From contig NZ_JAUSWW010000001.1 of NCBI RefSeq assembly GCF_030815415.1, positions 3,968,001 to 4,032,000 of the forward strand: a DNA stretch of 64,000 nt, read 5' to 3'. Each line of letters opens with the position of its first letter. Position 1 is the stretch's first letter. Origin of the DNA: Streptomyces canus. GTDB taxonomy: Bacteria; Actinomycetota; Actinomycetes; Streptomycetales; Streptomycetaceae. Positions 44,099 through 59,576 of the stretch are shown here, in pieces. The notes under the pieces were generated by a model. That model made no database searches, was not told the origin of the DNA, and saw only the letters and a program-made list of their open reading frames with translations. The position numbers and the translations under genes were made by a program.

Positions 44099-44728
44099 TC
44101 AGCCCGTTGCGATCAAGATCACCAGCAGTACCGCTCCCGCGATGACCGGCGCGAAGATCTCGTACGCCCAGCGCACGGTCACCTCGCCCTGGGCGCTCTC
44201 CGCCGTCCCGCGTGTCTCCATGAGCTCGCGCAGGTCGTCCATGATCTTGTCGGTCTCGGCCCGGGCCGGCCCGGCGGCGGGGACGGGGACCGGGGCGGCG
44301 CCACCGCCGCCGAAGCCGAGCCGCAGGCCGGCGCCGCCGCCGCGCTCGGCGCGCGCGTCCTTGCGTGCCGCCCTCTTGCGGGCGCGCAGCGACACCGGGA
44401 CGGCCCACAGCTGGAACGTGTCGCCGGACTCGGCGACGACCTCATTGGAGTAACCGGACCGCAGCGCGGCGGCCTGCCCCCAGGGGAGCACGATCACCCG
44501 GAACGGGTTGCGGATGCGCAGGCGGTCCTCGTTGGCGTAGACGGCCGGGCGGACGGTGAAGGCGACGATCAGCGGGAGCGCGAGGATCATCGAGGCGAGC
44601 GCCAGCCAGGGGGTGCGGTCCTCGCCCTGGACCAGGGCGTCGATGCCGAGCCAGAGGACGATGGCGAGCAGCAGGGCGCCTCCGGCGATGCCTGCGGGTG
44701 AGCGGTAGATGCGGTCCTTGGTCGTCAT
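44099..44728 (-). CDS. PH-domain membrane protein
   Basis: 209 aa. Two adjacent helices at about 14-32 and 43-62 precede a bPH-type domain (AVYANEDRLRIRNPFRVIVLPWGQAAALRSGYSNEVV), a Gly/Ala/Arg-rich cytosolic linker, and a C-terminal helix (EIFAPVIAGAVLLVILIATG). Such proteins are common in actinomycetes, and their PH-like domain may bind lipid or protein partners. It lies directly upstream of the 554-aa PH-domain protein and is divergent from deoC. Confidence 0.85.
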   Translation of the reverse strand: MTTKDRIYRSPAGIAGGALLLAIVLWLGIDALVQGEDRTPWLALASMILALPLIVAFTVRPAVYANEDRLRIRNPFRVIVLPWGQAAALRSGYSNEVVAESGDTFQLWAVPVSLRARKRAARKDARAERGGGAGLRLGFGGGGAAPVPVPAAGPARAETDKIMDDLRELMETRGTAESAQGEVTVRWAYEIFAPVIAGAVLLVILIATG

Positions 44729-44779
44729 GCGGGCGATTGTGCCTCAGTTGTTCGCCTTCTCGCCGTGGGGGGCCGCCGA

Positions 44780-44840
44780 GTGCGCGGGTGCAGGTCCGTC
44801 GGTGGTTGCTCGCGCAGTTCCCCGCGCCCCTGGGTGGGTG
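44780..44840. repeat. Dispersed Streptomyces intergenic repeat, copy D
   Basis: GTGCGCGGGTGCAGGTCCGTCGGTGG, then TTGCTCGCGCAGTTCCCCGCGCCCCTGGGTGGGTG, in the gap between the PH-domain gene and deoC. Same family as copies A-C. Confidence 0.65.
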
Positions 44841-44877
44841 CGCTCCCCTGCGTCCAGAGCAAACCGTTCTTTCGGGG

Positions 44878-44912
44878 TGTACAGCCGCTACGCGCGTAGA
44901 TATGCTCGGCTG
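44878..44912 (+). promoter_or_regulatory. deoC promoter with operator in the spacer
   Basis: -35-like TGTACA (44878-44883), 17-nt spacer, -10 TATGCT (44901-44906), then 6 nt to the GTG start. The spacer contains the palindrome CTACGCGCGTAG at 44888-44899, so a bound repressor would block RNA polymerase. The same palindrome is at 38210-38221. Confidence 0.68.
44888..44899. promoter_or_regulatory. CTACGCGCGTAG palindrome in the deoC promoter
   Basis: Perfect 12-bp palindrome inside the -35/-10 spacer of deoC, identical to the site at 38210-38221 upstream of the purine nucleoside phosphorylase gene. Confidence 0.62.
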
Positions 44913-45878
44913 GTGACCATGCCCACCACTGCATCTCCCGCACACCCGCTTACGGATGTCGCCGCGTCCGACAGCACGCTGCGTCGCTTCCTCCACGGGC
45001 TGCCCGGCGTCGACGCGGTCGGCCTGGAGGCGCGCGCCGCCTCTCTCGGCACCCGTTCCATCAAGACGACCGCCAAGGCGTACGCCATCGACCTCGCCAT
45101 CTCGATGGTCGACCTGACGACGCTGGAAGGCGCGGACACCCCGGGCAAGGTCCGGGCGCTCGGCGCCAAGGCGGTCCGCCCCGACCCGACCGACCGTTCG
45201 ACCCCCGCGACCGCGGCCGTCTGTGTCTATCCCGACATGGTGGCCCCCGCGAAGGAGGCCGTCGCCGGCTCCTCCGTGAAGGTCGCCTCGGTCGCCACCG
45301 CCTTCCCGGCGGGCCGCGCCGCCCTCGCGGTGAAGCTCGCCGACGTGCGCGACGCCGTCGCCGCGGGCGCGGACGAGATCGACATGGTCATCGACCGCGG
45401 GGCGTTCCTCGCGGGTCATTACCTGAAGGTGTACGACGAGATCACCGCCGTGAAGGAGGCCTGCGGGACCAGCGCCCGTCTGAAGGTCATCTTCGAGACC
45501 GGCGAGCTCTCGACGTACGACAACATCCGCCGCGCGAGCTGGCTCGGCATGCTGGCCGGGGCCGACTTCATCAAGACGTCGACCGGCAAGGTGGCGGTGA
45601 ACGCGACCCCCGCGAACACCCTCCTCATGCTGGAGGCCGTCCGCGACTTCCGCGCCCAGACCGGCGTCCAGATCGGCGTGAAGCCGGCCGGCGGCATCCG
45701 CACCACCAAGGACGCCATCAAGTTCCTGGTGCTGGTCAACGAGACCGTCGGCGAGGACTGGCTGGACAACCACTGGTTCCGCTTCGGCGCCTCCTCGCTC
45801 CTGAACGACCTGCTGATGCAGCGTCAGAAGCTGGCCACCGGCCGTTACTCCGGCCCCGACTACGTGACGGTGGACTGA
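44913..45878 (+). CDS. deoC: Deoxyribose-phosphate aldolase DeoC
   Basis: 321 aa from GTG 44913, probably leaderless; ATG 44919 is the alternative. Cleaves 2-deoxyribose-5-phosphate into acetaldehyde and glyceraldehyde-3-phosphate. The Schiff-base Lys lies in FIKTSTGKVAVNATPAN, the second Lys in VKPAGGIRTTKDA and the proton-relay Asp in ADEIDMVIDRG. It is longer than E. coli DeoC, with an N-terminal extension of about 50 residues as in other actinomycetes. It is 5 nt upstream of an aldehyde dehydrogenase gene that could oxidise the acetaldehyde. Confidence 0.95.
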   Translation: MTMPTTASPAHPLTDVAASDSTLRRFLHGLPGVDAVGLEARAASLGTRSIKTTAKAYAIDLAISMVDLTTLEGADTPGKVRALGAKAVRPDPTDRSTPATAAVCVYPDMVAPAKEAVAGSSVKVASVATAFPAGRAALAVKLADVRDAVAAGADEIDMVIDRGAFLAGHYLKVYDEITAVKEACGTSARLKVIFETGELSTYDNIRRASWLGMLAGADFIKTSTGKVAVNATPANTLLMLEAVRDFRAQTGVQIGVKPAGGIRTTKDAIKFLVLVNETVGEDWLDNHWFRFGASSLLNDLLMQRQKLATGRYSGPDYVTVD

Positions 45879-45883
45879 TCCAC

Positions 45884-47320
45884 ATGGCATCTGCATTCGA
45901 GTACGCACCGGCACCCGAGTCCCGCTCGGTCGTCGACATCGCGCCCTCCTACGGGCTGTTCATCGACGGCGAGTTCGTGGAGGCGGCGGACGGCAAGGTC
46001 TTCAAGACCGTCTCCCCCGCCACCGAGGAGGTCCTCTCCGAGATCGCCCAGGCGGGCGAGGCGGACGTCGACCGTGCGGTGAGGGCCGCCCGCAAGGCCT
46101 TCGAGAAGTGGTCGGCGCTGCCCGGCGCCGAGCGCGCCAAGTACCTGTTCCGCATCGCCCGGATCATCCAGGAGCGCAGCCGCGAGCTGGCCGTCCTGGA
46201 GACCCTGGACAACGGCAAGCCCATCAAGGAGACCCGCGACGCCGACCTCCCCCTGGTCGCCGCGCACTTCTTCTACTACGCGGGCTGGGCCGACAAGCTC
46301 GACCACGCGGGCTTCGGCGCGAACCCGCGTCCTCTGGGTGTCGCCGGTCAGGTCATCCCGTGGAACTTCCCGCTGCTGATGCTGGCGTGGAAGATCGCCC
46401 CGGCGCTGGCGACCGGCAACACGGTCGTGCTGAAGCCGGCGGAGACCACGCCGTTGAGTGCCCTGTTCTTCGCGGACATCTGCCGCCAGGCCGGTCTGCC
46501 CAAGGGCGTCGTCAACATCCTTCCCGGGTACGGCGACACGGGCGCCGCCCTCGTCGAGCACCCCGATGTGAACAAGGTGGCCTTCACCGGTTCGACCGCG
46601 GTCGGCAAGGCGATCGCGCGCCAGGTGGCGGGCACAGACAAGAAGGTCACCCTCGAACTGGGCGGCAAGGGTGCCAACATCGTCTTCGACGACGCCCCGA
46701 TCGACCAGGCCGTCGAGGGCATCGTCACCGGCATCTTCTTCAACCAGGGCCAGGTCTGCTGCGCGGGCTCCCGGCTGCTGGTCCAGGAGTCGATCCAGGA
46801 CGAGCTGCTGGACTCGCTGAAGCGCAGGCTCTCCACCCTCCGGCTCGGCGACCCGCTGGACAAGAACACCGACATCGGCGCGATCAACTCCGCGGAGCAG
46901 CTCTCCCGGATCACCTCGCTCGTCGAGGCGGGCGAGGCGGAGGGCGCCGAGCGCTGGTCCCCGGCCTGTGAACTCCCGTCCTCCGGCTACTGGTTCGCCC
47001 CGACGCTCTTCACGAACGTCACCCAGGCGCACACCATCGCCCGCCACGAGATCTTCGGCCCGGTCCTCTCGGTCCTGAGCTTCCGTACACCGGACGAGGC
47101 CGTCGCCAAGGCCAACAACAGCCAGTACGGCCTGTCGGCGGGCATCTGGACGGAGAAGGGTTCGCGGATCCTCGCCGTCGCGGGCAAGCTGCGCGCGGGC
47201 GTGATCTGGTCCAACACGTTCAACAAGTTCGACCCGACCTCGCCGTTCGGCGGTTACAAGGAGTCGGGCTTCGGCCGCGAGGGCGGTCGCCACGGCCTGG
47301 AGGCGTACCTCGATGTCTGA
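45884..47320 (+). CDS. Aldehyde dehydrogenase (catalytic half of an ALDH16-like pair)
   Basis: 478 aa. Complete NAD-dependent aldehyde dehydrogenase: PWNFPLLMLAWKIAPAL, cofactor motif FTGSTAVGKAI, catalytic Glu in LELGGKGAN and catalytic Cys in FFNQGQVCCAGSR, plus EIFGPVLSV. It follows deoC by 5 nt and overlaps the next ALDH-like gene by 8 nt. The likely substrate is acetaldehyde from DeoC, giving acetate; this is inference. The tandem arrangement with a second, catalytically dead ALDH protein matches the two-domain ALDH16 family split into two genes. Confidence 0.94.
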   Translation: MASAFEYAPAPESRSVVDIAPSYGLFIDGEFVEAADGKVFKTVSPATEEVLSEIAQAGEADVDRAVRAARKAFEKWSALPGAERAKYLFRIARIIQERSRELAVLETLDNGKPIKETRDADLPLVAAHFFYYAGWADKLDHAGFGANPRPLGVAGQVIPWNFPLLMLAWKIAPALATGNTVVLKPAETTPLSALFFADICRQAGLPKGVVNILPGYGDTGAALVEHPDVNKVAFTGSTAVGKAIARQVAGTDKKVTLELGGKGANIVFDDAPIDQAVEGIVTGIFFNQGQVCCAGSRLLVQESIQDELLDSLKRRLSTLRLGDPLDKNTDIGAINSAEQLSRITSLVEAGEAEGAERWSPACELPSSGYWFAPTLFTNVTQAHTIARHEIFGPVLSVLSFRTPDEAVAKANNSQYGLSAGIWTEKGSRILAVAGKLRAGVIWSNTFNKFDPTSPFGGYKESGFGREGGRHGLEAYLDV

Positions 47321-48224
47321 GAAGAACGAGAAGACGGACCGTTTTGATCGGTTGTCGGTCTTCAAGACCTACAAGCTGTACGTCGGCGGGAAGTTCCCGC
47401 GTTCCGAGAGCGGCCGGGTGTACGAGGTGAGCGACGCGAAGGGCAACTGGCTGGCGAACGCGCCGCTTTCGTCCCGTAAGGACGCCCGTGACGCGGTGGT
47501 CGCCGCGCGCAAGGCGTTCGGCGGCTGGTCGGGCGCGACGGCGTACAACCGGGGACAGATCCTCTACCGCGTCGCGGAGATGCTGGAGGGCCGCCGCGAG
47601 CAGTTCGTGCGCGAAGTGGCCGACGCCGAGGGGCTGTCGAAGTCGAAGGCGGCCGCTGTCGTCGACGCGACGATCGACCGCTGGGTCTGGTACGCGGGCT
47701 GGACCGACAAGATCGCCCAGGTGGTCGGTGGCGGCAACCCGGTGGCGGGTCCGTTCTTCAACCTCTCCACCCCGGAGCCGACCGGCGTGGTCGCGGTCCT
47801 GGCCCCGCAGGAGTCGTCCTTCCTGGGCCTGGTCTCGGTCGTCGCCCCGGTGATCGCGACCGGCAACACGGCGATCGTGATCGCGTCCGAGAAGTCCCCG
47901 CTGCCCGCCCTGTCCCTGGGCGAGGTGCTGGCCACCTCCGACCTGCCCGGCGGTGTCGTCAACGTCCTGTCCGGCCGTACGGCGGAGATCGCGGCGCCGC
48001 TGGCCGCGCACCAGGACGTCAACGCGATCGATCTGGCGGGCGCCGATGACGTACTGGCGAAGGAGCTGGAGATCGCGGCGGCGGACAACCTGAAGCGGGT
48101 TCTCCGTCCACAGGCTGTGGACTATTCGGCGGCTCCGGGTATCGACCGGATGACGGCGTTCCTGGAGACGAAGACGGTCTGGCACCCGACGGGCTCGCTG
48201 GGCGCGTCCGGCTCGTCCTACTGA
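47313..48224 (+). CDS. Truncated, non-catalytic aldehyde dehydrogenase-like protein
   Basis: 303 aa, about 170 short of a full ALDH. It retains the N-terminal Rossmann part (LYVGGKFPRSESGR, VAVLAPQESSFLGLVSVVAPVIATGNT, PGGVVNVLSG), but the sequence ends before the catalytic domain: no LELGGK Glu motif and no QxCC Cys motif. The normal stop and good codon use argue that this is a genuine short protein rather than a broken gene. In ALDH16 enzymes a second, inactive ALDH domain packs on the active one, and this gene overlaps the active one by 8 nt, so a structural partner role is likely. Confidence 0.88.
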   Translation: MSEKNEKTDRFDRLSVFKTYKLYVGGKFPRSESGRVYEVSDAKGNWLANAPLSSRKDARDAVVAARKAFGGWSGATAYNRGQILYRVAEMLEGRREQFVREVADAEGLSKSKAAAVVDATIDRWVWYAGWTDKIAQVVGGGNPVAGPFFNLSTPEPTGVVAVLAPQESSFLGLVSVVAPVIATGNTAIVIASEKSPLPALSLGEVLATSDLPGGVVNVLSGRTAEIAAPLAAHQDVNAIDLAGADDVLAKELEIAAADNLKRVLRPQAVDYSAAPGIDRMTAFLETKTVWHPTGSLGASGSSY

Positions 48225-48238
48225 CGGCCACACAGACC

Positions 48239-48283
48239 GGAGAGCCGCGCCTTCCCACCGTCCTGGGAAGACGCGGCTCTCTG
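48239..48283 (+). terminator. Terminator after the deoC-aldehyde dehydrogenase operon
   Basis: GGAGAGCCGCG / CGCGGCTCTC stem with an internal CTTCCCA-N5-TGGGAAG stem, 15 nt after the stop of the second ALDH-like gene. It also lies beside the stop of the convergent broken gene. Confidence 0.7.
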
Positions 48284-48290
48284 CGTACCG

Positions 48291-48720
48291 TCAGCCGTTG
48301 TTGAGCAGTCCCGCCGCCTGGCCGACCACCGGGATGCCGCCGATGGACTGGGCCTGCGCCACCGGGCCGGTCAGCGCCTGGGTGGCCAGGGGCTGGAAGT
48401 CGGCGAGCTGGGTGCCCAGGCCGTTGCCGAGGGGGTCGACGCCGGTGCCGACGAGGGGGTTGGGCTTGAGGCCGCTGACCGGGCCGGTGACATAGCCGAC
48501 CGTGCTGGTCAGGCCCTGGAGGCCGGCCTGCGGGTCGATGTTGCCCAGCGAGGCGGGTGCGCATCACGTCGATGACCGGGTCGGTGTCCGCGGCGGCCGT
48601 CGCCGCGCCTGCGCCCAGGGCCACGCCCGCGGTCGCGAGGGCGGCCAGCGCACGCTGGGCGGTGGGGGTGGAGGAGGACGCGTGTCGGGCGACGACGGGT
48701 AGTTGAGGTTCGGCGCACAC
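48291..48720 (-). pseudogene. Frameshifted small secreted-protein gene
   Basis: On the minus strand an N-terminal segment with a signal-peptide-like stretch (AQRALAALATAGVALGAGAATAAADTDPVIDV) runs to about 48553, after which protein-like sequence continues only in another frame: SLGNIDPQAGLQGLTSTVGYVTGPVSG through GGIPVVGQAAGLLNNG and a stop at 48291. The join lies near 48545-48555. Both halves are of typical streptomycete exported-protein composition, so this looks like one gene broken by a frameshift (or a sequencing error). It marks the border between conserved genes and the biosynthetic cluster. The start codon is uncertain. Confidence 0.6.
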
Positions 48721-48781
48721 TCCACCGCCGACCCGCAGACTTCAAAGGCATCCCCATAGGCGTGACAAGTAATAGTCATTT

Positions 48782-48807
48782 AATGCCGGAATCCGATATG
48801 CGGCATT
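48782..48807. promoter_or_regulatory. Inverted repeat in an AT-rich region upstream of the LuxR gene
   Basis: AATGCCG and CGGCATT, perfect 7-bp arms with a 12-nt spacer, in a stretch (48760-48870) clearly richer in A and T than the surroundings. Candidate regulator site between the broken secreted-protein gene and the LuxR gene. Confidence 0.45.
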
Positions 48808-48942
48808 CGAACTATCGACTGAATAACGCCGCTTGACGTACCCTCACGATCACTTCAAAGCGGGGGCAACACCCCTGCCGCGGTGCGTGAGTCAGATGAC
48901 CAGCCTTTCGATCAAGGATGGAATTTGAGACCCGGGGGGGCC

Positions 48943-49677
48943 ATGTCCATACACATAGCCGATGTCCAGCAGCACACGCGCGCCACCGAAACCTATTCGG
49001 CTCTCGATGATTTCGAACTGGTGCACCCGGTACACGCCGACGCCGTCTGCGGAGTTCTTCGCAGCGCGTTCACCGAGGCACCGCAAACCCGGGGCTTCAC
49101 CCAGTTGACCGGACGCTTCGCCGTCGAGACGATGCATCACCCGCTCTCCGATTTCTCGCGCCTGATCCGCACCGAGATCCTCACCCGCGGGCACAGTCTG
49201 CGGCTGCTGGCGGACCGCGGCGTCATGACCGACCCCCGCTCCCGCGCGCTGCCGGGCGGCGCCCGGACCCGCCAGGTGCAACTGCGCGTCACCGACGCCC
49301 CGTTGCCCGACCTGGCCCTGCTGGGGACCGAGCTCGGCCTGGTGCGCACCGTGGCGCCGGACGGCCGGCTGCAGATCCTGCTCGCCCGCCGGGAGGCCAC
49401 CGCCGCCCTGCTCCAGTTCCAGCAGGTGCTGTGGGGCCACGCCGAGGGCCTGACCGCACCGCGCGACGTCCGTGAGCTGCACCTGGACGAGATCCAGCGA
49501 CAGGTGTTGCAGATGCTCGGCTCCGGCATGAAGGACGACACGGCGGCCCGGCAGATGAACGTGTCCGTGCGCACCTACCGCCGTCATGTGGCCGCCATCC
49601 TCAAGTCCCTTGACGTCAGCACCCGTTTCGAGGCGGGGATCAGGGCCGCGGAGTACGGCCTGGTGTCCGCGACCTGA
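48943..49677 (+). CDS. LuxR-type regulator of the biosynthetic cluster
   Basis: 244 aa from ATG 48943, which follows a G-rich ribosome-binding site; GTG 48883 is an upstream alternative. The C-terminal helix-turn-helix (VLQMLGSGMKDDTAARQMNVSVRTYRRHVAAILKSLDV, residues about 190-230) is of LuxR/NarL type. The N-terminal 170 residues contain no receiver, ATPase or autoinducer domain that I recognise, and resemble the N-terminal domain of other small cluster-associated LuxR regulators. It is the first gene of the cluster and transcribed toward it, so it is the likely pathway-specific activator. Confidence 0.88.
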   Translation: MSIHIADVQQHTRATETYSALDDFELVHPVHADAVCGVLRSAFTEAPQTRGFTQLTGRFAVETMHHPLSDFSRLIRTEILTRGHSLRLLADRGVMTDPRSRALPGGARTRQVQLRVTDAPLPDLALLGTELGLVRTVAPDGRLQILLARREATAALLQFQQVLWGHAEGLTAPRDVRELHLDEIQRQVLQMLGSGMKDDTAARQMNVSVRTYRRHVAAILKSLDVSTRFEAGIRAAEYGLVSAT

Positions 49678-49711
49678 CAGCCGCACCCGGGTCCGCGCCA
49701 GGGCCCGGGGT

Positions 49712-49755
49712 GGCAGGTTGCTGCCGACTTTGGCGCCCGGAACCTGTTGCTGCCG
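49712..49755. promoter_or_regulatory. Repeats upstream of the carrier-protein gene
   Basis: GGCAGGTTGCTGCC at 49712-49725 is an inverted repeat, and its GTTGCTGCCG half recurs at 49746-49755, 29 bp (about three helical turns) further. The site lies 109 nt before the first biosynthetic gene and is a candidate target of the LuxR-type regulator. Confidence 0.45.
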
Positions 49756-49863
49756 CGGCGCGCGGACTTCTAGGTTGATCAGGAAACCAGCACCCCCACC
49801 AGGTAATTGACCCCCGTTCTTCCGTGCCCACGCACGGCACCACGGGCAGAAACGGATGACGGA

Positions 49864-50127
49864 ATGTCCATTGCTTCGGTCACCCTTGCCGATGTCGAGG
49901 CTGTCGTACTCGCCGTGACGGCAGAGGCCCTGAATGTCCCCGAAGTGCACCTCGACGACAATCTTCTGGAACTGGGCGTCGACTCCCTGGTCGCCACCCG
50001 GATAGTGGCGGCACTGCGCACCCGCTTCGGCGCGGACATCCCGTTGCTCAACATCTTCGAATACCCGGAATTGCGCGAATTCGCCATATCGGTCCTGGAC
50101 ACGATCCAGGACGCACCCCAGGAATGA
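49864..50127 (+). CDS. Stand-alone acyl/peptidyl carrier protein
   Basis: 87 aa from ATG 49864; the frame extends upstream without coding-like sequence. The phosphopantetheine attachment site is LLELGVDSLVATR with Ser41, and the rest is a four-helix carrier fold. The sequence around the Ser is closer to PCPs and discrete carriers than to FAS ACP. It is 3 nt upstream of the mutase-like gene and cotranscribed with it and the carboxylase/reductase, so it may carry the unusual acyl unit they make. Confidence 0.9.
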   Translation: MSIASVTLADVEAVVLAVTAEALNVPEVHLDDNLLELGVDSLVATRIVAALRTRFGADIPLLNIFEYPELREFAISVLDTIQDAPQE

Positions 50128-50130
50128 CGC

Positions 50131-51579
50131 ATGGGCATACCGGGCGAGTTCCCCTACGACGCCGGACTGCACCCGGGCGGATACACGACCCGGCTGTGGA
50201 CCATGCGACAGCTCGCGGGCCTCTACAGCGCCGAGAGCACCAATAGTCGTTTCCGCTACCTGCTGGAGATGGGTGAGACGGGCCTGTCGCTCGCCTTCGA
50301 CCTGCCGACCCAGCTCGGTCTGGACCCCGACGCCCCCGCCGCCGACGGCGAGGTGGGACGCACCGGTGTCTCCGTCGCCACGGTGGACGACCTGAAGACC
50401 GTGTTCAAGGAGATCCCGCTCGACCGGGTCTCGGTCTCGTTCACCATCAACGCCACCGCCCCGATGCTGCTCGCGATGTGGATCGTGGCCGCCGAGGAGT
50501 CGGACGTGGACCCCGCCGCCCTGCGCGGCACCCTCCAGAACGAGATGCTCAAGGAGTTCCTCGCCCGCAAGGCGTATGTGTACGACCTCGACACCAGCGT
50601 GCGCTACGCCCTCGACGTCGTCGAGTACTGCATGGAGCACCTGCCCGGCGTCAACCCCATCTCGGTCTCCGGCGGGCATGCCCGGGAGGCCGGGGCGGAC
50701 GCCGCGCTGGAGGTCGCCTGTGCGCTGGCGAGCGTGGACGCCTATCTCGCCGGGATGGTCGAGCGCGGACACTCCGCGGAGCAGGTCGCCTCCCGGTTCA
50801 GCTTCATCTTCGGCACCGACATGGAGGTGCTGAAGGAGGCCGCCAAGCTGCGGGTCGCCCGCCGCCGGTACGCGGAGCGGATGCGGGACCGCTGGGGCGT
50901 GACCGCGCCCCGGGCGATGCGGCTGCGCGCACAGGTCAACACCTTCGGCTCGGCCCTCGCCTACCAGGAACCCCTCAACAACATCGTCCGGGCGACCCTG
51001 CAGGCGGTCGCGGCCGTCCTCGGCGGCACCCAGTCGCTGCATGTGTGCAGCTTCGACGAGGCCGTGCAGACGCCCGGCCCGCTCGGCGCCCGGATCGCGC
51101 TGCGCACCCAGCAGATCATCGCCCACGAGACGGACCTGGCCCGCTACGCCGACCCGCTCGGCGGCTCCCATGTGATCGAGGGCCTCGTCGAGGAGCTGGG
51201 CAAGGAGGTCGACGACTGGCTGGAGCGCATCGAGGCGCGCGGCGGTGTGGCGGCCTGTATCCGCAGCGGCTGGCTGGAGGGCCAGATCGAGGAACTCGCC
51301 TACCGCGACCCCGGGCCCACCGTGGGGGTGCTGGAGACCTCGCCCTCGGAGTCCGAGCGCCGGCTGCTCCAGAGCGAGGCCCACACCACGACCGGTGGCC
51401 GCCGTGACATCGAACGCCCGGACTGCGAACCGGAGTTGACCCGGCTACGGGACGACGCCCGGGCCGGCCGCAACATCCTGCCGGCCCTGATCGAAGCGGT
51501 CCGGCGGCGGGCCACCATCGGGCAGCTCTGTACCGCCATGCGACCGGCCGACGACCTCTCGGCACCGTCCCTTTCCTGA
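50131..51579 (+). CDS. Acyl-CoA mutase (methylmalonyl-CoA mutase family), catalytic subunit only
   Basis: 482 aa TIM-barrel domain of the adenosylcobalamin-dependent acyl-CoA mutases: YTTRLWTMRQLAGLYSAEST, GLSLAFDLPTQLGLD, GTLQNEMLKEF, SVSGGHAREAGA, PLNNIVRATLQA and GGTQSLHVCSFDEA are all family blocks. The C-terminal cobalamin-binding domain with DxHxxG is absent, so it must work with a separate small subunit, as IcmA/IcmB and HcmA/HcmB do; none is in the window. The protein is even shorter than IcmA (about 566 aa), lacking some of the C-terminal linker. Next to a ccr gene it recalls the ccr-meaA (ethylmalonyl-CoA) pair. Substrate unknown. Confidence 0.88.
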   Translation: MGIPGEFPYDAGLHPGGYTTRLWTMRQLAGLYSAESTNSRFRYLLEMGETGLSLAFDLPTQLGLDPDAPAADGEVGRTGVSVATVDDLKTVFKEIPLDRVSVSFTINATAPMLLAMWIVAAEESDVDPAALRGTLQNEMLKEFLARKAYVYDLDTSVRYALDVVEYCMEHLPGVNPISVSGGHAREAGADAALEVACALASVDAYLAGMVERGHSAEQVASRFSFIFGTDMEVLKEAAKLRVARRRYAERMRDRWGVTAPRAMRLRAQVNTFGSALAYQEPLNNIVRATLQAVAAVLGGTQSLHVCSFDEAVQTPGPLGARIALRTQQIIAHETDLARYADPLGGSHVIEGLVEELGKEVDDWLERIEARGGVAACIRSGWLEGQIEELAYRDPGPTVGVLETSPSESERRLLQSEAHTTTGGRRDIERPDCEPELTRLRDDARAGRNILPALIEAVRRRATIGQLCTAMRPADDLSAPSLS

Positions 51580-51608
51580 CACTCCCCCACCCCAGCGGAG
51601 TCGCACTG

Positions 51609-52952
51609 ATGTCTCAACTGATCGAGGCGGTCCGGCACGGCGCGGACCCGGACGAACTACTGGCCTGTCCCGTACCGGAGTCCTATCGCGCGGTCTTCCT
51701 GCGCCGCGAGGACGAGGACCTGTTCAAGGGGCTCGACAGCCGCGACAAGGACGTACGGCGCACCCTGCACCTCGGCGAGGTGCCCATGCCGGAGCTGGCG
51801 CCGGACGAGGTGCTGGTCGCGGTGATGGCGTCCGCCGTCAACTACAACACCGTCTGGTCCGCGCTGTACGAGCCGATGTCGACCTTCGGGTTCCTGGGCC
51901 GGTTCGCCCGCGAGGGCCACTGGGAGGCACGGCACGACCGCGACTACCAGGTCGTCGGGTCCGACGCGGCCGGCGTGGTGGTCCGGGTGGGCGGCGCCGT
52001 ACGGCACTGGTCCCCGGGTGACCGGGTGGTGGTGAACCCGCCGTACATCGACGAACAGGATCCCGTCGCCCAGCGGGACGGGATGCTGACCACGGGCATG
52101 CTCGCCTGGGGGTTCGAGACCAACTTCGGCGCGTTCGGCGACTTCGCCGTGGCCCGCGCCTCGCAGCTCGTGCCGATGCCACCGCATCTGTCGTGGGAGG
52201 AGGCCGCCTGCAACACGCTGTGTCTCGGCACCTCCTACCGCATGCTGATCGGTGACCACGGCGCCCGGATCAGGGCCGGGGACATCGTGCTGGTCTGGGG
52301 CGCGGCGGGCGGGCTCGGCAGCTACGCCGTGCAGCTGGTGCGGCAGGCCGGCGGGATCGCCGTCGGGGTGGTCGGCTCGCGGGACAAGGCCGACCTGGTG
52401 GAACGGCTGGGCTGCCAGGTCGTCGTCGACCGCAACGACGTGGGGCTCGGCGACGACGAGGACGACGCCTCCGCGTGGCGGGCGCTGGGCTCGGTCATCC
52501 GCAAGGAGCTCGGCGAGGATCCGCACGTCGCCTTCGAGCACGTCGGCAGGTCCACCTTCGAGACCTCGGTGAACGTGGTGCGGCGCGGCGGTGTGGTCGT
52601 GACTTGCGGGTCCAGCAGCGGATACCGGCACGTCTACGACAACCGCTATCTGTGGATGAAGCTCAAGCGGGTCATCGGCAGCCACGGCGCCAACATCGAC
52701 GAGGCGTGGGAGGCGAACCGGCTGCTGCGCCTCGGCATGGTCGTGCCCGCCCTCTCCCGGGTCTTCCCCCTGGCCCAGGCCGCGGAGGCCACCCGCTCGG
52801 TACAGCTCAACGCCCACGAGGGCAAGGTGGGCCTGCTGAACCTGGCGACCGCGGAGGGCCAGGGCGTACAGGACCCGGGGCTGCGGGAGCGGATCGGCGA
52901 GCCCCGACTGCGACTCTTCCGCGACCACGCCGGACAGGTGGCCCGACCGTGA
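51609..52952 (+). CDS. ccr: Crotonyl-CoA carboxylase/reductase
   Basis: 447 aa medium-chain reductase that uses NADPH and CO2 to turn 2-enoyl-CoA into 2-alkylmalonyl-CoA, extender units for polyketides. Family hallmarks: SAVNYNTVWSALYEP (Asn of the CO2 pocket), AWGFETNFGAFGDFA (Phe/Glu of the pocket), cofactor motif WGAAGGLGSYAVQL and NRYLWMKLKRVIGSHGAN (His of the pocket). No PKS is in the window, so the product may be loaded on the stand-alone carrier or processed by the neighbouring mutase. Its stop overlaps the first mini-ORF start (GTGA). Confidence 0.93.
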   Translation: MSQLIEAVRHGADPDELLACPVPESYRAVFLRREDEDLFKGLDSRDKDVRRTLHLGEVPMPELAPDEVLVAVMASAVNYNTVWSALYEPMSTFGFLGRFAREGHWEARHDRDYQVVGSDAAGVVVRVGGAVRHWSPGDRVVVNPPYIDEQDPVAQRDGMLTTGMLAWGFETNFGAFGDFAVARASQLVPMPPHLSWEEAACNTLCLGTSYRMLIGDHGARIRAGDIVLVWGAAGGLGSYAVQLVRQAGGIAVGVVGSRDKADLVERLGCQVVVDRNDVGLGDDEDDASAWRALGSVIRKELGEDPHVAFEHVGRSTFETSVNVVRRGGVVVTCGSSSGYRHVYDNRYLWMKLKRVIGSHGANIDEAWEANRLLRLGMVVPALSRVFPLAQAAEATRSVQLNAHEGKVGLLNLATAEGQGVQDPGLRERIGEPRLRLFRDHAGQVARP

Positions 52953-53089
52953 CCACCCCGTACGACAGCGCCCCCGAGACCTTCCGCCACCGCCCGGCCA
53001 GGACGCCGGGAGCGATCACCGACACCACCGCGGACAAGGCCCGGCCGCAACCTCTCCACGACCACACCGAGCAGGCGGGACGCACATGA
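52949..53089 (+). CDS. Mini-ORF 1 of a coupled tandem array
   Basis: 46 aa, GTG start overlapping the ccr stop (GTGA) and stop overlapping the next ATG (ATGA). MTTPYDSAPETFRHRPARTPGAITD... resembles the first residues of the valine adenylation protein downstream (MTTPYLSIPEAFRRQVVRGPEAV). It is the most A-domain-like of the four at its N-terminus. Whether it is translated into a functional peptide is unknown. Confidence 0.6.
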   Translation: MTTPYDSAPETFRHRPARTPGAITDTTADKARPQPLHDHTEQAGRT

Positions 53090-53226
53090 CCACCCGTCAC
53101 GACCGCGCCCCCGAGACCTCCCGCCACCGCCCGGCCAGGACGCCGGGAGCGATCACCGACACCACCGCGGACAAGGCCCGGCCGCAACCTCTCCACGACC
53201 ACACCGAGCAGGCGGGACGCACATGA
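53086..53226 (+). CDS. Mini-ORF 2 of a coupled tandem array
   Basis: 46 aa (MTTRHDRAPETSRHRPARTPG...), identical in sequence to mini-ORF 3. It starts and ends with 4-nt ATGA overlaps, so it could be translated by termination-reinitiation from mini-ORF 1. Confidence 0.6.
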   Translation: MTTRHDRAPETSRHRPARTPGAITDTTADKARPQPLHDHTEQAGRT

Positions 53227-53363
53227 CCACCCGTCACGACCGCGCCCCCGAGACCTCCCGCCACCGCCCGGCCAGGACGCCGGGAGCGATCACCGACACC
53301 ACCGCGGACAAGGCCCGGCCGCAACCTCTCCACGACCACACCGAGCAGGCGGGACGCACATGA
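53223..53363 (+). CDS. Mini-ORF 3 of a coupled tandem array
   Basis: 46 aa, an exact copy of mini-ORF 2 at nucleotide level, again bounded by ATGA overlaps. The lack of any difference between the two copies indicates a very recent duplication or gene conversion. Confidence 0.6.
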   Translation: MTTRHDRAPETSRHRPARTPGAITDTTADKARPQPLHDHTEQAGRT

Positions 53364-53503
53364 CCACCCGTCACGACCGCGCCCCCGAGACCTCCCGCCA
53401 CCGCCCGGTCGGGGCGCCGGGAGCGATCACCGTCACCACCGCGGACGAGGAGGACCGGTCGCGGCCTTTCCGCGGCCGTGTCCGGTGGGTGGGGCGCGCA
53501 TGA
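53360..53503 (+). CDS. Mini-ORF 4 of a coupled tandem array
   Basis: 47 aa. Its first 16 residues equal mini-ORFs 2 and 3, then it diverges (VGAPGAITVTTADEEDRSRPFRGRV...). Its stop overlaps the ATG of the valine adenylation gene by 4 nt, so translation of that gene may depend on reading through the whole array. Confidence 0.6.
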   Translation: MTTRHDRAPETSRHRPVGAPGAITVTTADEEDRSRPFRGRVRWVGRA

Positions 53504-55077
53504 CCACCCCGTACCTCAGCATTCCCGAGGCCTTTCGTCGTCAGGTCGTCCGGGGGCCGGAGGCGGTTGCCGTCGCCGGGGCGGGGGAGGAGCTGACCTA
53601 CGGTGAGCTGGACCGTCGCTCGGACGCGTGGGCGGATGCGCTCGTCGCGGGCGGGGTGCTGCCCGGTGACCGGGTGCTGATGTGCCTGGAGCGGTCGGTG
53701 TCGCTGGTCGTCGGCCTGCTCGCGATCCTCAAGGCGTCGGCGGCGTATCTTCCGGTGGACCTCGGCGAGGCGCCCGCGCGGCTGGCGGGCATCGTCGCGG
53801 ACGCGGAGGTACGGCTGGCGTTGTGCGATGCGGTGGGGGCCGGGGTGCTGGCGGCGCATGGGGTGCCGATGCTGTTGGTCGGACGGTCCGGCGAGGCGCC
53901 GACGGATACGGCGGCAAGGGTCCCCCTCGACGTACCCGTGCCCCTGGCGCCCGCGGTCCCCGGCATCCCCGTACCCCTTGCCGGGCACCCCGCGACCGGG
54001 CCCGAGGATGTCGCCTGCGTCATGTACACCTCCGGCTCCACCGGCCGTCCGAAGGGCGTGCTCGTGCCGCACCGGGCCGTGCTGAACCTCGTTCACGAGC
54101 CGAACTACGTCACCCTGGACGGCCACGACCGGCTCCTCCAGCTCGCCCCGGTCGCCTTCGACGCGGCGACCTTCGAGATCTGGGGCGCCCTGCTGAACGG
54201 CGCCCGGCTGGAGGTGGCGCCGACCGGTCCGCTCGGTGCGGAGGGGCTGGGCGGGCTGCTGCGGGAGCGGGGCATCACGGTCCTGTGGCTGACCGCGGCA
54301 CTGTTCCACCGTCAGATCGACTTCGACGCCGGTTCGTTGAGCTCGCTGCGCGTGCTCCTGGCGGGCGGTGACGTGCTGTCCGTCGAACACGTCCGGCGAC
54401 TCCGCGCGGCCGCCCCCGACGTGCGGATCGTCAATGGTTACGGCCCGACCGAGGCCACCACCTTCTCGCTGTGCCACCGGATCGCGCCGGACGAGGAGTT
54501 CCCCCGCTCGGTCCCGATCGGCGTCCCCGTCCAGGGCACCGAGGCCCAACTGCGGGACGACTCCGGGGCCGTCGTGCCCGAGGGCGTCGAGGGCGAGCTG
54601 TGGATCGCCGGAGCGGGCGTGGGCCTCGGCTACTGGCGCCGCCCCGACCTGACCGCCGAGCGGTTCGTCACCGACGCCGACGGCCGCACCTGGTACCGCA
54701 CCGGCGACCTGGCCCGCCGACGGGCCGACGGCGTCCACGAGTTCCTCGGCCGGATCGACGGCCAGGTCAAGCTGCTCGGCCACCGCGTGGAACCCGGCGA
54801 GATCGAGAACCTGCTCGCGGAGTGCCCGCCCATCGGCCAGGCCGCCGTGGGCGTACGCACCAACCTCGTGGGCGATCCCAAACTCGTCGCCTGGGTCACC
54901 CTCACCGCCCCGCTGGACCGCCGCGCACTGCGCGCCCGACTCCGCCGCGAACTGCCCGAGTACATGGTGCCGACGCTCTTCGCAGCCGTCGACGCGCTGC
55001 CCGTGACCGCCAACGGCAAGGTCGACCGGAACGCCCTGCCGACCCCCGACTGGCGACGTAAGGAGAACTATGTCTGA
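53500..55077 (+). CDS. Stand-alone NRPS adenylation domain, predicted valine-specific
   Basis: 525 aa from ATG 53500, coupled to mini-ORF 4. Adenylation motifs are complete: YTSGSTGRPKG (A3, residues 176-186), FDAATFE (A4), NGYGPTEATT (A5), YRTGDL (A7), GQVKLLGHRVEPGEIE (A8) and NGKVDR (A10, Lys507). Aligning to GrsA by eye, the ten specificity residues read D-A-F-W-L-G-G-T-F-K, the established bacterial valine code. It should activate L-valine as the adenylate and load it on a PCP in trans, most simply the 82-aa PCP whose gene overlaps by 8 nt. No MbtH-like gene was seen nearby. Confidence 0.93.
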   Translation: MTTPYLSIPEAFRRQVVRGPEAVAVAGAGEELTYGELDRRSDAWADALVAGGVLPGDRVLMCLERSVSLVVGLLAILKASAAYLPVDLGEAPARLAGIVADAEVRLALCDAVGAGVLAAHGVPMLLVGRSGEAPTDTAARVPLDVPVPLAPAVPGIPVPLAGHPATGPEDVACVMYTSGSTGRPKGVLVPHRAVLNLVHEPNYVTLDGHDRLLQLAPVAFDAATFEIWGALLNGARLEVAPTGPLGAEGLGGLLRERGITVLWLTAALFHRQIDFDAGSLSSLRVLLAGGDVLSVEHVRRLRAAAPDVRIVNGYGPTEATTFSLCHRIAPDEEFPRSVPIGVPVQGTEAQLRDDSGAVVPEGVEGELWIAGAGVGLGYWRRPDLTAERFVTDADGRTWYRTGDLARRRADGVHEFLGRIDGQVKLLGHRVEPGEIENLLAECPPIGQAAVGVRTNLVGDPKLVAWVTLTAPLDRRALRARLRRELPEYMVPTLFAAVDALPVTANGKVDRNALPTPDWRRKENYV

Positions 55078-56744: not shown

Positions 56745-59576
56745 ATGACCGGCGCCCCCGTGGTGCTGCCTCTGACACCCCAGCAGCGAGGCGTGTACTT
56801 CCTGCACTGTCTGGCCCCGGACAGCGCGGTGTACAACGTGCCGATCGTGCTGCGGGTGCGCGGCGGTCTGGACCGCGGGCGGCTCCAGCGCGCGGTGGAC
56901 GTGCTGGTGACCCGGCATCAGGCGCTGCGGCTGACGGTGCGGGAGAGCGACGGGCAGGTGCTCCAGCTGATCCACCCCGCGGACGCGGCGCCCCGGGTCG
57001 AGGTCAACTGGATCGCGCTGCCGGGCGCGGACCTGACCCGGGCGGCCGCGGAGGTCGTGCGGTACGCGGGCCGGCCCTTCGACGTGGTGCGCGGTCCCCT
57101 GATGCGGGTGGACGTCGTGGACCTCGGTGGCGAGGAGCACGCGGTGTCGCTGTGCTTCCACCACCTGGTCATCGACGAGATCGCGGCGACCGCGCTGGCC
57201 GGCGAACTGCACCGGCTCTACGAGGATCCCGCCGCCCTGCCCGCGTCCGGCCCCGAGCACCAGTACGCCGAGTTCTGCGCCGGACTGCTGGCCGAGCCCG
57301 ATCCGAAGGGCCTCGCCTTCTGGCGGGAGCGGCTGGCGGGGATGCCGGTGCTGCCGCTGCCCGAGGAGCATGTCCCCGGGGAGCACGGGCTGTTCACCGG
57401 GGACCGGGTCGGCTTCACCGTGCCCGAGGCCGTGTCGGCGCGCGTCGCCGAGGTGAGCCGCGCCCACCGGGTCTCGGAGTTCATGGTGTTCCACGCCGCG
57501 CTGCTGGTGCTGCTGCACCGGTGGACCGGCGCCGAGGACATCGCCGTGGGCACGCCGATGAGCGGCCGGGTCGACGAGCGGTTCGCCGAGACCGTGGGCT
57601 TCTTCCAGAACACGGTCGTGCTGCGCGGCACGGTCGACCCCGGGCAGAGCTTCGCGGCGCTGCTCAAGGCGTCCCGGCGGACCGTGCTGGAGGGCCTGCA
57701 ACGCCAGCACGTGCCCTTCGAGACGGTCGTGGACGCGGTCCGGCCGTCCCGGGAGTCCACCCGCAACCCGCTGTTCCAGGTGGCGCTGGTCTTCAACCGG
57801 CGCAAGGTCGAGCAGGACTGGAGCCTGCCGGGCCTGACGGTGGAGCCGCTGCCGTTCCCGTGGCCGACCTCGCACTTCGATCTGGCGCTGACCCTGCTGC
57901 ACGAGTACGGGGTGCTCAAGGGCGACTTCGCCTACAGCGCGCAGCGGTTCTCCCGGGCCACGGCCGAACGGCTGACCGTGGTGTTCCTGCGGCTGCTCGG
58001 CGGACTGCTGGCGGACCCGGACGCGCCGGTCGGCGACATCGACCTGATGGACGCCGAGGAGCGGGCGCGGGTGCGGGAGCTGAGCACCGCGAGCGGCCGG
58101 CAGGTGCTGGACGGACGGGGCCGGGTGCTGCCGCTCGGCTTCCACGGCGCCGTGCACACCGCGGACCCGGCCGGCGGGCGGCCGGTGCCGACCGGGGAGC
58201 GCGGCCGGTTCACCGCGGACGGACGGTTCGAGCTGTGGCGCGATCCCGTCGAGTCGGCCCTGGAGGCGCATCCGGGTGTGCTGGCCGCCGCCGTGGTGCG
58301 GCTGCCCGCCGCCGAGGACGGCGGCGGCGAGCGGCTCGTCGCCTGTGCCGTGCCGCGCCCGGGCACCGAACCGCCCGCGCCGCGCGAGCTGTCGGCCCAT
58401 CTGCAGGCCCGGGTGCCGACGCATCTGCTGCCGCAGCGGATCGTCGTACGGGACGAGATCCCCACCGGGGCGGACGGCCGCCCCGACCCGGCCGCGCTGG
58501 CCGCCGTGCCCGGACCGGCCGAAGGGGCGCCGGAGGAGGCCGCCGACGACGCTCCGCGCGATGCCGTCGAGCGGCGGCTGGTGGAGTTGTTCGAGGAGCT
58601 CCTCGGCGTGCCGGGACTCGGCCGCCACGACAACTTCTTCGACTACGGCGGCCAGTCGCTGCTGGCGGTCCGGCTGGTCGCACGGGTCGCCGAGGAACTG
58701 GGCCGCCCGCTCGGCGTCGGCGTCTTCATGAACAACCCGACCGTGGCCGCCCTGGCCCGGGCCCTCGCCGGGGACGGCTCTGGCGACCCCGCCGGTCTGG
58801 TGCGTCTGCGCACTCCTGCGGGCGCCCCCTCGGACGTGGCGGTGGCCCTGATCCACCCGGTCGGCGGCACCCTCATGTGCTACGCGCCCCTGGTCGGCCT
58901 CCTGCCCGAGGACACCGAGGTGGTCGGCCTGGAGCGGGTCGCGGGCGCCCACCCCGACGACAACGCCTACGCGGACCTCGTCGACCGGTACGCCACCACC
59001 CTGGCCGACGCCCTGCCCGGCCGCCGGATCGCCCTGCTGGGCTGGTCGCTCGGCGGTGTCCTGGCCCACTCGGTCGCCGACCGGCTCACCGAACTCGGCC
59101 ACGACGTCGCCCTGGTGGCCCTGCTGGACTCCCTCGCCCAGCGCACCGCCGAGGACGCCGAGCGGATGTCCGCCACGTCCGCGGAGCTGTTCGCGCTCGC
59201 CGGTTCGGTGCTCCGGGACGGCACCGGTGTCCTCGGGGCCACCGCCGGGCAACGACTGCTCATGCGGCGCTTCGGCGTCGACCTGGACCTCCTGCGCGAC
59301 ACACCCGCGGACCAGGCCGCCCGCATGCTGGAGGACTGGGCGCGGCTGCTCGGCCTGGTGGCCGGGTGCGCCCCGGCGAAGACCACCGCGCCCCTCCAGC
59401 TGTTCCTGTGCGCGGACAACCCGGCCGGCTACCCGGAAGCGCTGGCCGCGAGCTGGGAGGGCCTCGGCGGGGCGCTGGAGCTGCGCCGGGTGCCCGGGAC
59501 GCACATCGAGGTGCTCGCGTCCCCCGCGGTGGAGCAGGTCGCGGCGGCGTTCACCGAGCGAACAGGACGGTCATGA
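56745..59576 (+). CDS. NRPS: C - relic A subdomain - PCP - thioesterase
   Basis: 943 aa, after a GAAGGAGA ribosome-binding site. A condensation domain spans about 5-440 with HHLVIDE at 139-145 (second His intact, final Gly of HHxxxDG replaced by Glu). Residues about 455-590 match only the C-terminal subdomain of an adenylation domain, with the A10 Lys motif lost (GADGRPD), so the domain cannot activate an amino acid. A PCP follows (FFDYGGQSLLAVRL, Ser638), then a type I thioesterase with GWSLGG (Ser768), Asp795 and His920. The PCP must be loaded in trans and the TE should release the finished product. The stop overlaps the oxygenase start (ATGA). Confidence 0.92.
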   Translation: MTGAPVVLPLTPQQRGVYFLHCLAPDSAVYNVPIVLRVRGGLDRGRLQRAVDVLVTRHQALRLTVRESDGQVLQLIHPADAAPRVEVNWIALPGADLTRAAAEVVRYAGRPFDVVRGPLMRVDVVDLGGEEHAVSLCFHHLVIDEIAATALAGELHRLYEDPAALPASGPEHQYAEFCAGLLAEPDPKGLAFWRERLAGMPVLPLPEEHVPGEHGLFTGDRVGFTVPEAVSARVAEVSRAHRVSEFMVFHAALLVLLHRWTGAEDIAVGTPMSGRVDERFAETVGFFQNTVVLRGTVDPGQSFAALLKASRRTVLEGLQRQHVPFETVVDAVRPSRESTRNPLFQVALVFNRRKVEQDWSLPGLTVEPLPFPWPTSHFDLALTLLHEYGVLKGDFAYSAQRFSRATAERLTVVFLRLLGGLLADPDAPVGDIDLMDAEERARVRELSTASGRQVLDGRGRVLPLGFHGAVHTADPAGGRPVPTGERGRFTADGRFELWRDPVESALEAHPGVLAAAVVRLPAAEDGGGERLVACAVPRPGTEPPAPRELSAHLQARVPTHLLPQRIVVRDEIPTGADGRPDPAALAAVPGPAEGAPEEAADDAPRDAVERRLVELFEELLGVPGLGRHDNFFDYGGQSLLAVRLVARVAEELGRPLGVGVFMNNPTVAALARALAGDGSGDPAGLVRLRTPAGAPSDVAVALIHPVGGTLMCYAPLVGLLPEDTEVVGLERVAGAHPDDNAYADLVDRYATTLADALPGRRIALLGWSLGGVLAHSVADRLTELGHDVALVALLDSLAQRTAEDAERMSATSAELFALAGSVLRDGTGVLGATAGQRLLMRRFGVDLDLLRDTPADQAARMLEDWARLLGLVAGCAPAKTTAPLQLFLCADNPAGYPEALAASWEGLGGALELRRVPGTHIEVLASPAVEQVAAAFTERTGRS

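Follow-up and report, generated by a model that had tools for sequence, protein, structure and literature searches.

A tandem array of chimeric mini-ORFs at the ccr/adenylation gene overlap of Streptomyces canus, probably born by microhomology duplication

Between ccr, which encodes a crotonyl-CoA carboxylase/reductase, and the stand-alone NRPS adenylation gene that follows it (here, the A gene), the window (i.e., the whole stretch of 64,000 nt of Streptomyces canus DNA that was analysed) carries an array of three 137-bp units and one 140-bp unit (52949-53499). To judge by sequence comparison, all the units are chimeras, in which the leading 84 nt derive from the start of the A gene and the closing 53 nt from the 3' end of ccr. 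The reading that accounts best for this arrangement, to which a probability of about 0.75 is given, is that the array arose from a microhomology tandem duplication across the overlap of the two genes, and that the mini-peptides it encodes are at present by-products, with ribosomes passing through. The chimeric anatomy can be read in the DNA itself, while the duplication event is what we infer from it.

Architecture of the array

The array appears as a single TRF row (52950-53450, period 137, 3.7 copies, 97% matches), whose score of 937 is the top of 11 rows, and a second repeat search also gives a 137-nt spacing. The register of the latter starts at 52900, inside ccr, which is already a hint that the repeat contains ccr sequence. 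The ORF coordinates are given in Table 1, and the tandem array of four linked mini-ORFs (46-47 aa) described in the initial annotation is real, although the length of 137 bp assigned there to all four units holds for units 1-3 and fails for unit 4, of 140 nt. Units 2 and 3 encode identical peptides of 46 aa. Four-nt NTGA overlaps, also anticipated, are seen at the five junctions out of five (GTGA between the ccr stop and the start of unit 1, ATGA in the later links), each copy being open in its own frame. The open frames are in themselves weak evidence, since a simulation based on the composition of the array (6% T) left 79-87% of the mutated units open, and 38% and 83% of the 46-codon windows taken from nine genes of the window are free of stops in one and the other shifted frame, respectively.

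Table 1. Features at the ccr/A junction, with coordinates in the window.
Feature	Position	Strand	Remarks
ccr, crotonyl-CoA carboxylase/reductase	51609..52952	+	NCBIfam TIGR01751, 490 bits (cut-off 378.55)
ccr tail, 53 nt	52896..52948	+	source of the 3' part of the units; starts at a microhomology site (GGCGAGCC in the window, GGCGAGGA in S3)
Unit 1, 137 nt	52949..53085	+	mini-ORF 52949-53089, GTG start, 46 aa, GTGA overlap with ccr stop
Unit 2, 137 nt	53086..53222	+	mini-ORF 53086-53226, ATG start, 46 aa
Unit 3, 137 nt, same sequence as unit 2	53223..53359	+	mini-ORF 53223-53363, ATG start, 46 aa
Unit 4, 140 nt	53360..53499	+	mini-ORF 53360-53503, ATG start, 47 aa, ATGA overlap with A gene
A gene (stand-alone NRPS adenylation), ATG at 53500	53500..55077	+	TIGR01733, PF00501, PF13193
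A-gene head, 84 nt	53500..53583	+	source of the 5' part of the units

Chimeric units and microhomology

Both parents of the units can be recognized within the window. The 3' end of ccr is the donor of the second part of every unit: the unit tails (45 nt before the next start) match the ccr tail at 30/45 positions in units 1-3 and at 27/45 in unit 4, the best of 4223 other positions reaching 26 in the ccr codon phase and 27 across the three phases. The unit heads (75 nt), in turn, match the start of the A gene at 49/75 (unit 1), 45/75 (unit 2) and 48/75 (unit 4) positions, against 42/75 for the best of 4160 other positions (these null positions, like those of the comparisons based on the orthologous cluster below, overlap one another and all come from one window). 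The likeness of the mini-ORFs to the first ~45 residues of the A domain, put forward in the initial annotation, is consequently confined to about the first 28 of them, the last ~17 resembling the C-terminus of Ccr. In the same way, the proposed duplication of the A-gene 5' end along with the coupling site is borne out but incomplete, since the duplicated piece also holds the 53-nt end of ccr. It is this ccr-derived part that supplies the stop codon, the SD-like element and the 4-nt overlap of each unit.

The joining point was located with the help of the sole orthologous cluster found, on contig L032 of Streptomyces sp. S3(2020) (S3 in what follows), which aligns to the window between 45066 and 62582 in three stretches with 91-94% identity. 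This contig lacks the 137-bp array, and no separate mini-ORF is present at its ccr/A junction. The 8-mer GGCGAGGA occurs in both its ccr (L032:7891) and its A gene (L032:8085), in codon phase 0 in each case, and is the longest word common to the last 150 nt of the former and the first 150 nt of the latter. Joining the two S3 genes at this word predicts a unit of 53 + 84 = 137 nt that is in frame and ends in the overlap. The predicted unit matches unit 1 at 95/137 ungapped positions, the best value elsewhere in the window being 71/137 (52700-53700 left out). Unit 4 fits more poorly, with 75/137 ungapped matches, or 91/137 if a 3-nt gap is allowed, whose position differs between comparisons (MAFFT alignments misplaced the ccr tails and were kept out of the counts). 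Nucleotides 1-84 of unit 1 match the S3 A gene at 59/84 positions and S3 ccr at 18/84, and nucleotides 85-137 match S3 ccr at 36/53 and the S3 A gene at 21/53; the best single breakpoint falls at 83-94, the microhomology lying at 85-92. In the window itself, the second microhomology site, at 53584 and directly after the A-gene head, reads GGGGAGGA instead of GGCGAGGA. The window ccr and A genes no longer share the 8-mer, and their longest common word, of 7 nt, would predict a unit of 150 nt. The two parental sites joined at a short shared word that characterize a microhomology duplication are, hence, found via S3, the word having decayed in the window.

Based on this, a tandem duplication would have straddled the 4-nt overlap of ccr and the A gene, and recombination at the 8-bp GGCGAGGA would have fused the first 28 A codons to the ccr end, in frame because both words stand in one codon phase. 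Each copy would thereby begin with the A start, continue as an open frame, include the SD-like element from the end of ccr and close with a stop that overlaps the start after it, and, given that the ccr tail carries its own stop, successive copies would form a chain of 4-nt overlaps. In this way, a duplication across the overlap would provide one common cause for the period (2 mod 3), the open frames, the overlaps and the A-like start. Moreover, since every unit ends in a stop/start overlap of its own, gain or loss of whole units would leave the frame of the A gene unchanged.

Growth of the array and its possible counterpart in S3

There are 29 variable sites among the units. Unit 2 equals unit 4 at 6/6 of those located from 1 to 35, and equals unit 1 at 23/23 of those from 50 to 136; units 2 and 3 look, in terms of sequence, like clean single-crossover hybrids of units 4 and 1. 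The array probably grew by unequal crossing-over, in which two diverged units would have given rise to a hybrid that was then duplicated again. One unequal crossover between two older units, plus one later duplication, would yield the pattern of units 2 and 3, in an order that we infer from their sequences, and gene conversion could be an alternative source of it.

An unduplicated ancestor of the ccr/A junction is presupposed by this scheme, and the only orthologous cluster, that of S3, seems to have a remnant of its own. In S3, the open A frame reaches back to the ccr overlap, which gives the A gene a 57-nt in-frame N-terminal extension (19 codons, L032:7944-8000). Of its first 30 nt, 22 agree with unit 1 (null maximum of 20 in 23,171), and of its final 27 nt, 20 agree with S3 ccr (null maximum of 18 in 23,174), both lengths having been picked after looking. 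Between the S3 segment that precedes the A start and the ccr tail of the window, only 22/45 positions agree, a value reached by 56 of 4223 in-phase null positions. The extension looks like a shortened junction copy of like kind, and the junction copy would probably predate the split between the window and S3, although the S3 leftover might also come from an independent event. The neighbouring ends of ccr and the A gene are fast-evolving as well: the last 60 nt of ccr have 83% identity to S3, versus 93-98% in 12 of the 14 ccr blocks, and the A gene opens with three 25-nt blocks that show 15, 17 and 20 matches per 25.

Composition and present role of the units

Units 1-3 (52949-53359) are extremely C/A-rich and T-poor (4-5% T), the composition of unit 4 being near normal. 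Over their 411 nt, the GC skew is -0.27 and the AT skew +0.64; of 31,360 windows (both strands, 1.6 Mb of the own genome), none reaches both skews and 18 have as little T. The RNAs of units 1 and 2 are weakly folded (-40.6 and -39.3 kcal/mol), with a mean of -64.2 (sd 9.0) for coding windows, only 1 of 194 of which is as weak; unit 4 has -72.7 kcal/mol. The encoded peptides are hydrophilic (GRAVY of -1.24 and -1.56, with 17 and 1 of 767 coding windows, respectively, as low).

These features raise the tentative possibility that strand-biased mutation, and not selection, shaped units 1-3 after the duplication and that the array has no effect at all, something that is compatible with the duplication origin. 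Where the S3 and window parents agree, the transitions of unit 1 are one-directional (13 G>A, 5 T>C, no A>G and no C>T, plus 8 transversions), the bias being weaker when only the window parents are considered (14 G>A, 12 T>C, 6 A>G, 1 C>T). A simulation with this same spectrum reproduces the weak folding in 139/400 runs and the hydrophilic peptide in 175/400, versus 1/400 each with a strand-symmetric spectrum. Unit 4 leans likewise (8 G>A, 5 T>C, 3 A>G and 3 C>T where the parents agree), but six of its transitions go in the opposite direction, so that the bias would not be uniform across adjacent units. In addition, G>A changes in unit 1 occupy 12 of 30 opportunities at codon positions 1 and 2 and 1 of 11 at position 3 (small numbers), which also counts against mutation alone. 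The present data do not separate selection acting on the RNA from selection favouring harmless peptides or from biased mutation.

Regarding translation, an SD-like element lies ahead of every start, with duplex energies of -8.9, -8.5, -8.5, -8.5 and -9.6 kcal/mol before units 1, 2, 3, 4 and the A gene, respectively (-4.7 to -9.6 kcal/mol for the other genes of the cluster), and the combination of 4-nt stop/start overlap and SD-like element typical of coupled overlaps is seen at 5/5 junctions. By analogy with documented translational coupling, ribosomes most likely pass through the units en route to the A gene: those ending ccr would most likely traverse the mini-ORFs by termination-reinitiation, or initiate anew at the repeated SD-like sites, the mini-peptides being presumably by-products with no selected sequence. 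A reinitiation cascade that tunes the A gene, as the initial annotation suggested, is possible. A more demanding version of it, a selected translational relay in which the number of units sets the ribosome supply to the A gene and copy-number changes act as a graded tuner of A versus Ccr, shares the duplication origin, differs on the present function and seems rather unlikely. It would agree with the fact that all five links are NTGA, since only 4-19% of the simulations of random substitution leave a unit with its two NTGA links intact, a rarity that hints at constraint (units 1-3 are not independent of one another), and also with the SD-like elements, with the identity of units 2 and 3, suggestive of recent copying or conversion, and with the weak folding of units 1 and 2. 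However, unit 4, which adjoins the A gene, is not weakly folded, and weak folding is expected from composition, as indicated by the shuffles (z of 0.69, -0.06, 0.92 and 1.63 for the four stretches) and by the same-spectrum simulation. Likewise, the start-site opening costs of the array and of the A gene are ordinary: among 102 4-nt overlaps of the same genome, the cost does not exceed that of units 1, 2, 3, 4 and the A gene in 64, 79, 79, 30 and 62 cases, respectively.

A related idea, somewhat more doubtful, is that of a frame-safe rheostat, in which copy number would give graded and heritable control of A versus ccr translation, the units having been shaped towards weak RNA folding and harmless hydrophilic peptides. 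It builds on the fact that an SD-like element, a start, an open frame and an overlap come with every unit, so that recombination could change the number of copies without a downstream frameshift. The confidences given to these explanations are not mutually exclusive, as two of them share the duplication origin. For its part, a pure by-product reading leaves the composition of units 1-3 and the 4-19% link survival unaccounted for. Even so, the units are most likely a mutational by-product traversed by ribosomes, with a copy-number tuner as a possibility.

Other candidates were considered for the region. Accessible start sites as a selected trait are unsupported, given the ordinary opening costs, and an RNA element was rejected, as the four stretches fold no better than their shuffles. 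No internal promoter and no terminator of the scanned types were detected in 52800-53700.

A role of the mini-ORFs as genes for functional small proteins, such as partners of the A domain, is very unlikely, and the source of small peptides contemplated by the initial annotation found no backing as regards functional ones. Their likeness to the A N-terminus, their position directly upstream of the A gene and their GC content at the third codon position (0.89-0.91, similar to the 0.93 and 0.91 of the neighbouring genes) could point in that direction, but a high GC3 can come from the parent genes, and the S3 junction has no separate mini-ORF. Apart from the array itself, the own genome gave no match to the peptides with E below 0.3, a set of 72,556 plasmid records gave none at E<=1, and Pfam gave none for the ORF2 peptide at E<=0.001. 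As for selection, NG86 dN/dS values are 0.289/0.120 (units 1 and 4), 0.232/0.087 (units 2 and 4), 0.042/0.030 (units 1 and 2) and 0.361/0.466 (predicted unit to unit 1), in comparison with 0.012/0.143 for the ccr body and 0.269/0.628 for the first A-gene codons. YN00, which gave values for 4/9 pairs, yields 0.249/0.268 for units 1 and 4 and 0.036/0.057 for units 1 and 2. No clear purifying selection on the peptides is thus apparent between units, in spite of which a weak constraint may exist, and neither conservation beyond the array, within the searches above, nor clear purifying selection, the hallmarks of a conserved small protein, was found. Least probable of all is an assembly artefact in which copies of identical units were miscounted, since, even though units 2 and 3 are identical over 137 bp, units 1 and 4 differ from them, so at least three distinct units exist, and the genome was assembled in 3 contigs.

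Distribution and relation to known systems

Arrays of this kind are scarce in the DNA surveyed. A survey of 80 stretches of the own genome (1.6 Mb, ~15% of 10.83 Mb) yielded 18 tandem arrays with a period of at least 60, none of them with two or more NTGA links; two have one such link, its length differing from the period. Another 1.38 Mb from other loci contained 5 tandem arrays, none with an NTGA link. In Lentzea pudingi, a 107-bp tandem array of 2.7 copies without NTGA links is located upstream of a relative of the A gene (L035:6700-6984).

The search for further orthologs covered several sets. Among 392 genomes of the genus, 255 of which gave matches at E<=1e-50, only the own genome spans both genes among the matches listed. 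At E<=1e-200, 395 relatives provided 2 matches, the own genome and a second one (G399) that matched ccr only and that was also the only match in a set of 60 genomes. A 393-genome search gave no matches (19 of the 20 genomes listed for it overlap the 392-genome set). A protein scan of genome contigs returned 587 stretches, 570 of them confirmed, and in the best 80 only L032 (86%) exceeds 54% identity; further orthologs may lie beyond those best 80 of 587. The closest place in plasmids, in Streptomyces sp. NBC_00239, has the A gene upstream of ccr and, hence, a different junction. In the openly licensed PMC literature, no title or abstract opening among the matches listed deals with a tandem array straddling a gene overlap; a search there on the product of the cluster listed one paper, on lydiamycin.

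Every link of the array, at -4 nt and with an SD-like element upstream, resembles the coupled 4-nt overlaps (ATGA/GTGA) described in PMC12548453 and PMC6728339, the former of which places the most efficient coupling at spacings of -4 to +3 nt. Unlike the gene pairs of those accounts, the array carries the overlap inside its repeat, and the frames that it links are chimeric fragments. The passages of PMC3887535 on the origin of gene overlaps make no mention of duplication. The short direct repeats at the endpoints of the array are, in turn, reminiscent of microhomology-bounded tandem duplications: direct repeats are reported in PMC3411829 for the deletions and duplications that it confirmed, with junctions of more than 10 bp, and PMC11111574 works with 9-bp borders. 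Nevertheless, the array straddles a gene overlap, a situation absent from the abstracts of those two papers. Its 8-bp word stands in one codon phase of two genes, and the product is therefore an in-frame fusion.

With variable-number tandem repeats and contingency loci, the array has in common its tandem units, the signs of recent copying and a presumed change in copy number. No second strain of the species turned up for a comparison of copy number, and the S3 ortholog, a record of another species, lacks the array. In these classes of loci, coding repeats are commonly confined to a single gene, where they preserve the frame or toggle the gene on and off. In contrast to them, the 137-nt unit (2 mod 3) leaves the downstream frame unshifted. 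The array would illustrate the birth and expansion of a short repeat at an operon gene overlap with the downstream gene kept in frame, and offers a natural test bed for the number of successive termination-reinitiation events that a bacterial ribosome can manage. It also calls for caution, because small ORFs in tandem can show good coding statistics and still be the debris of a duplication.

Genomic context

Within the A gene, nt 300-500 (about 53800-53999) are unusually diverged from S3: the two 100-nt blocks differ at 26 and 37 positions, compared with 25 in the first block of the gene and 1-10 in the remaining 13. The downstream NRPS gene (56745-59576) matches Condensation, AMP-binding_C, PP-binding and Thioesterase models, with the main AMP-binding model unmatched at E<=0.001, and the stand-alone A gene may supply it with adenylation activity, as judged by these domain matches. 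Upstream (44709-52952), a methylmalonyl-CoA mutase-type gene adjoins ccr, and there are also genes for a DeoC-type aldolase and a carrier protein and two aldehyde dehydrogenase-like genes, a set that may point to an unusual precursor unit.
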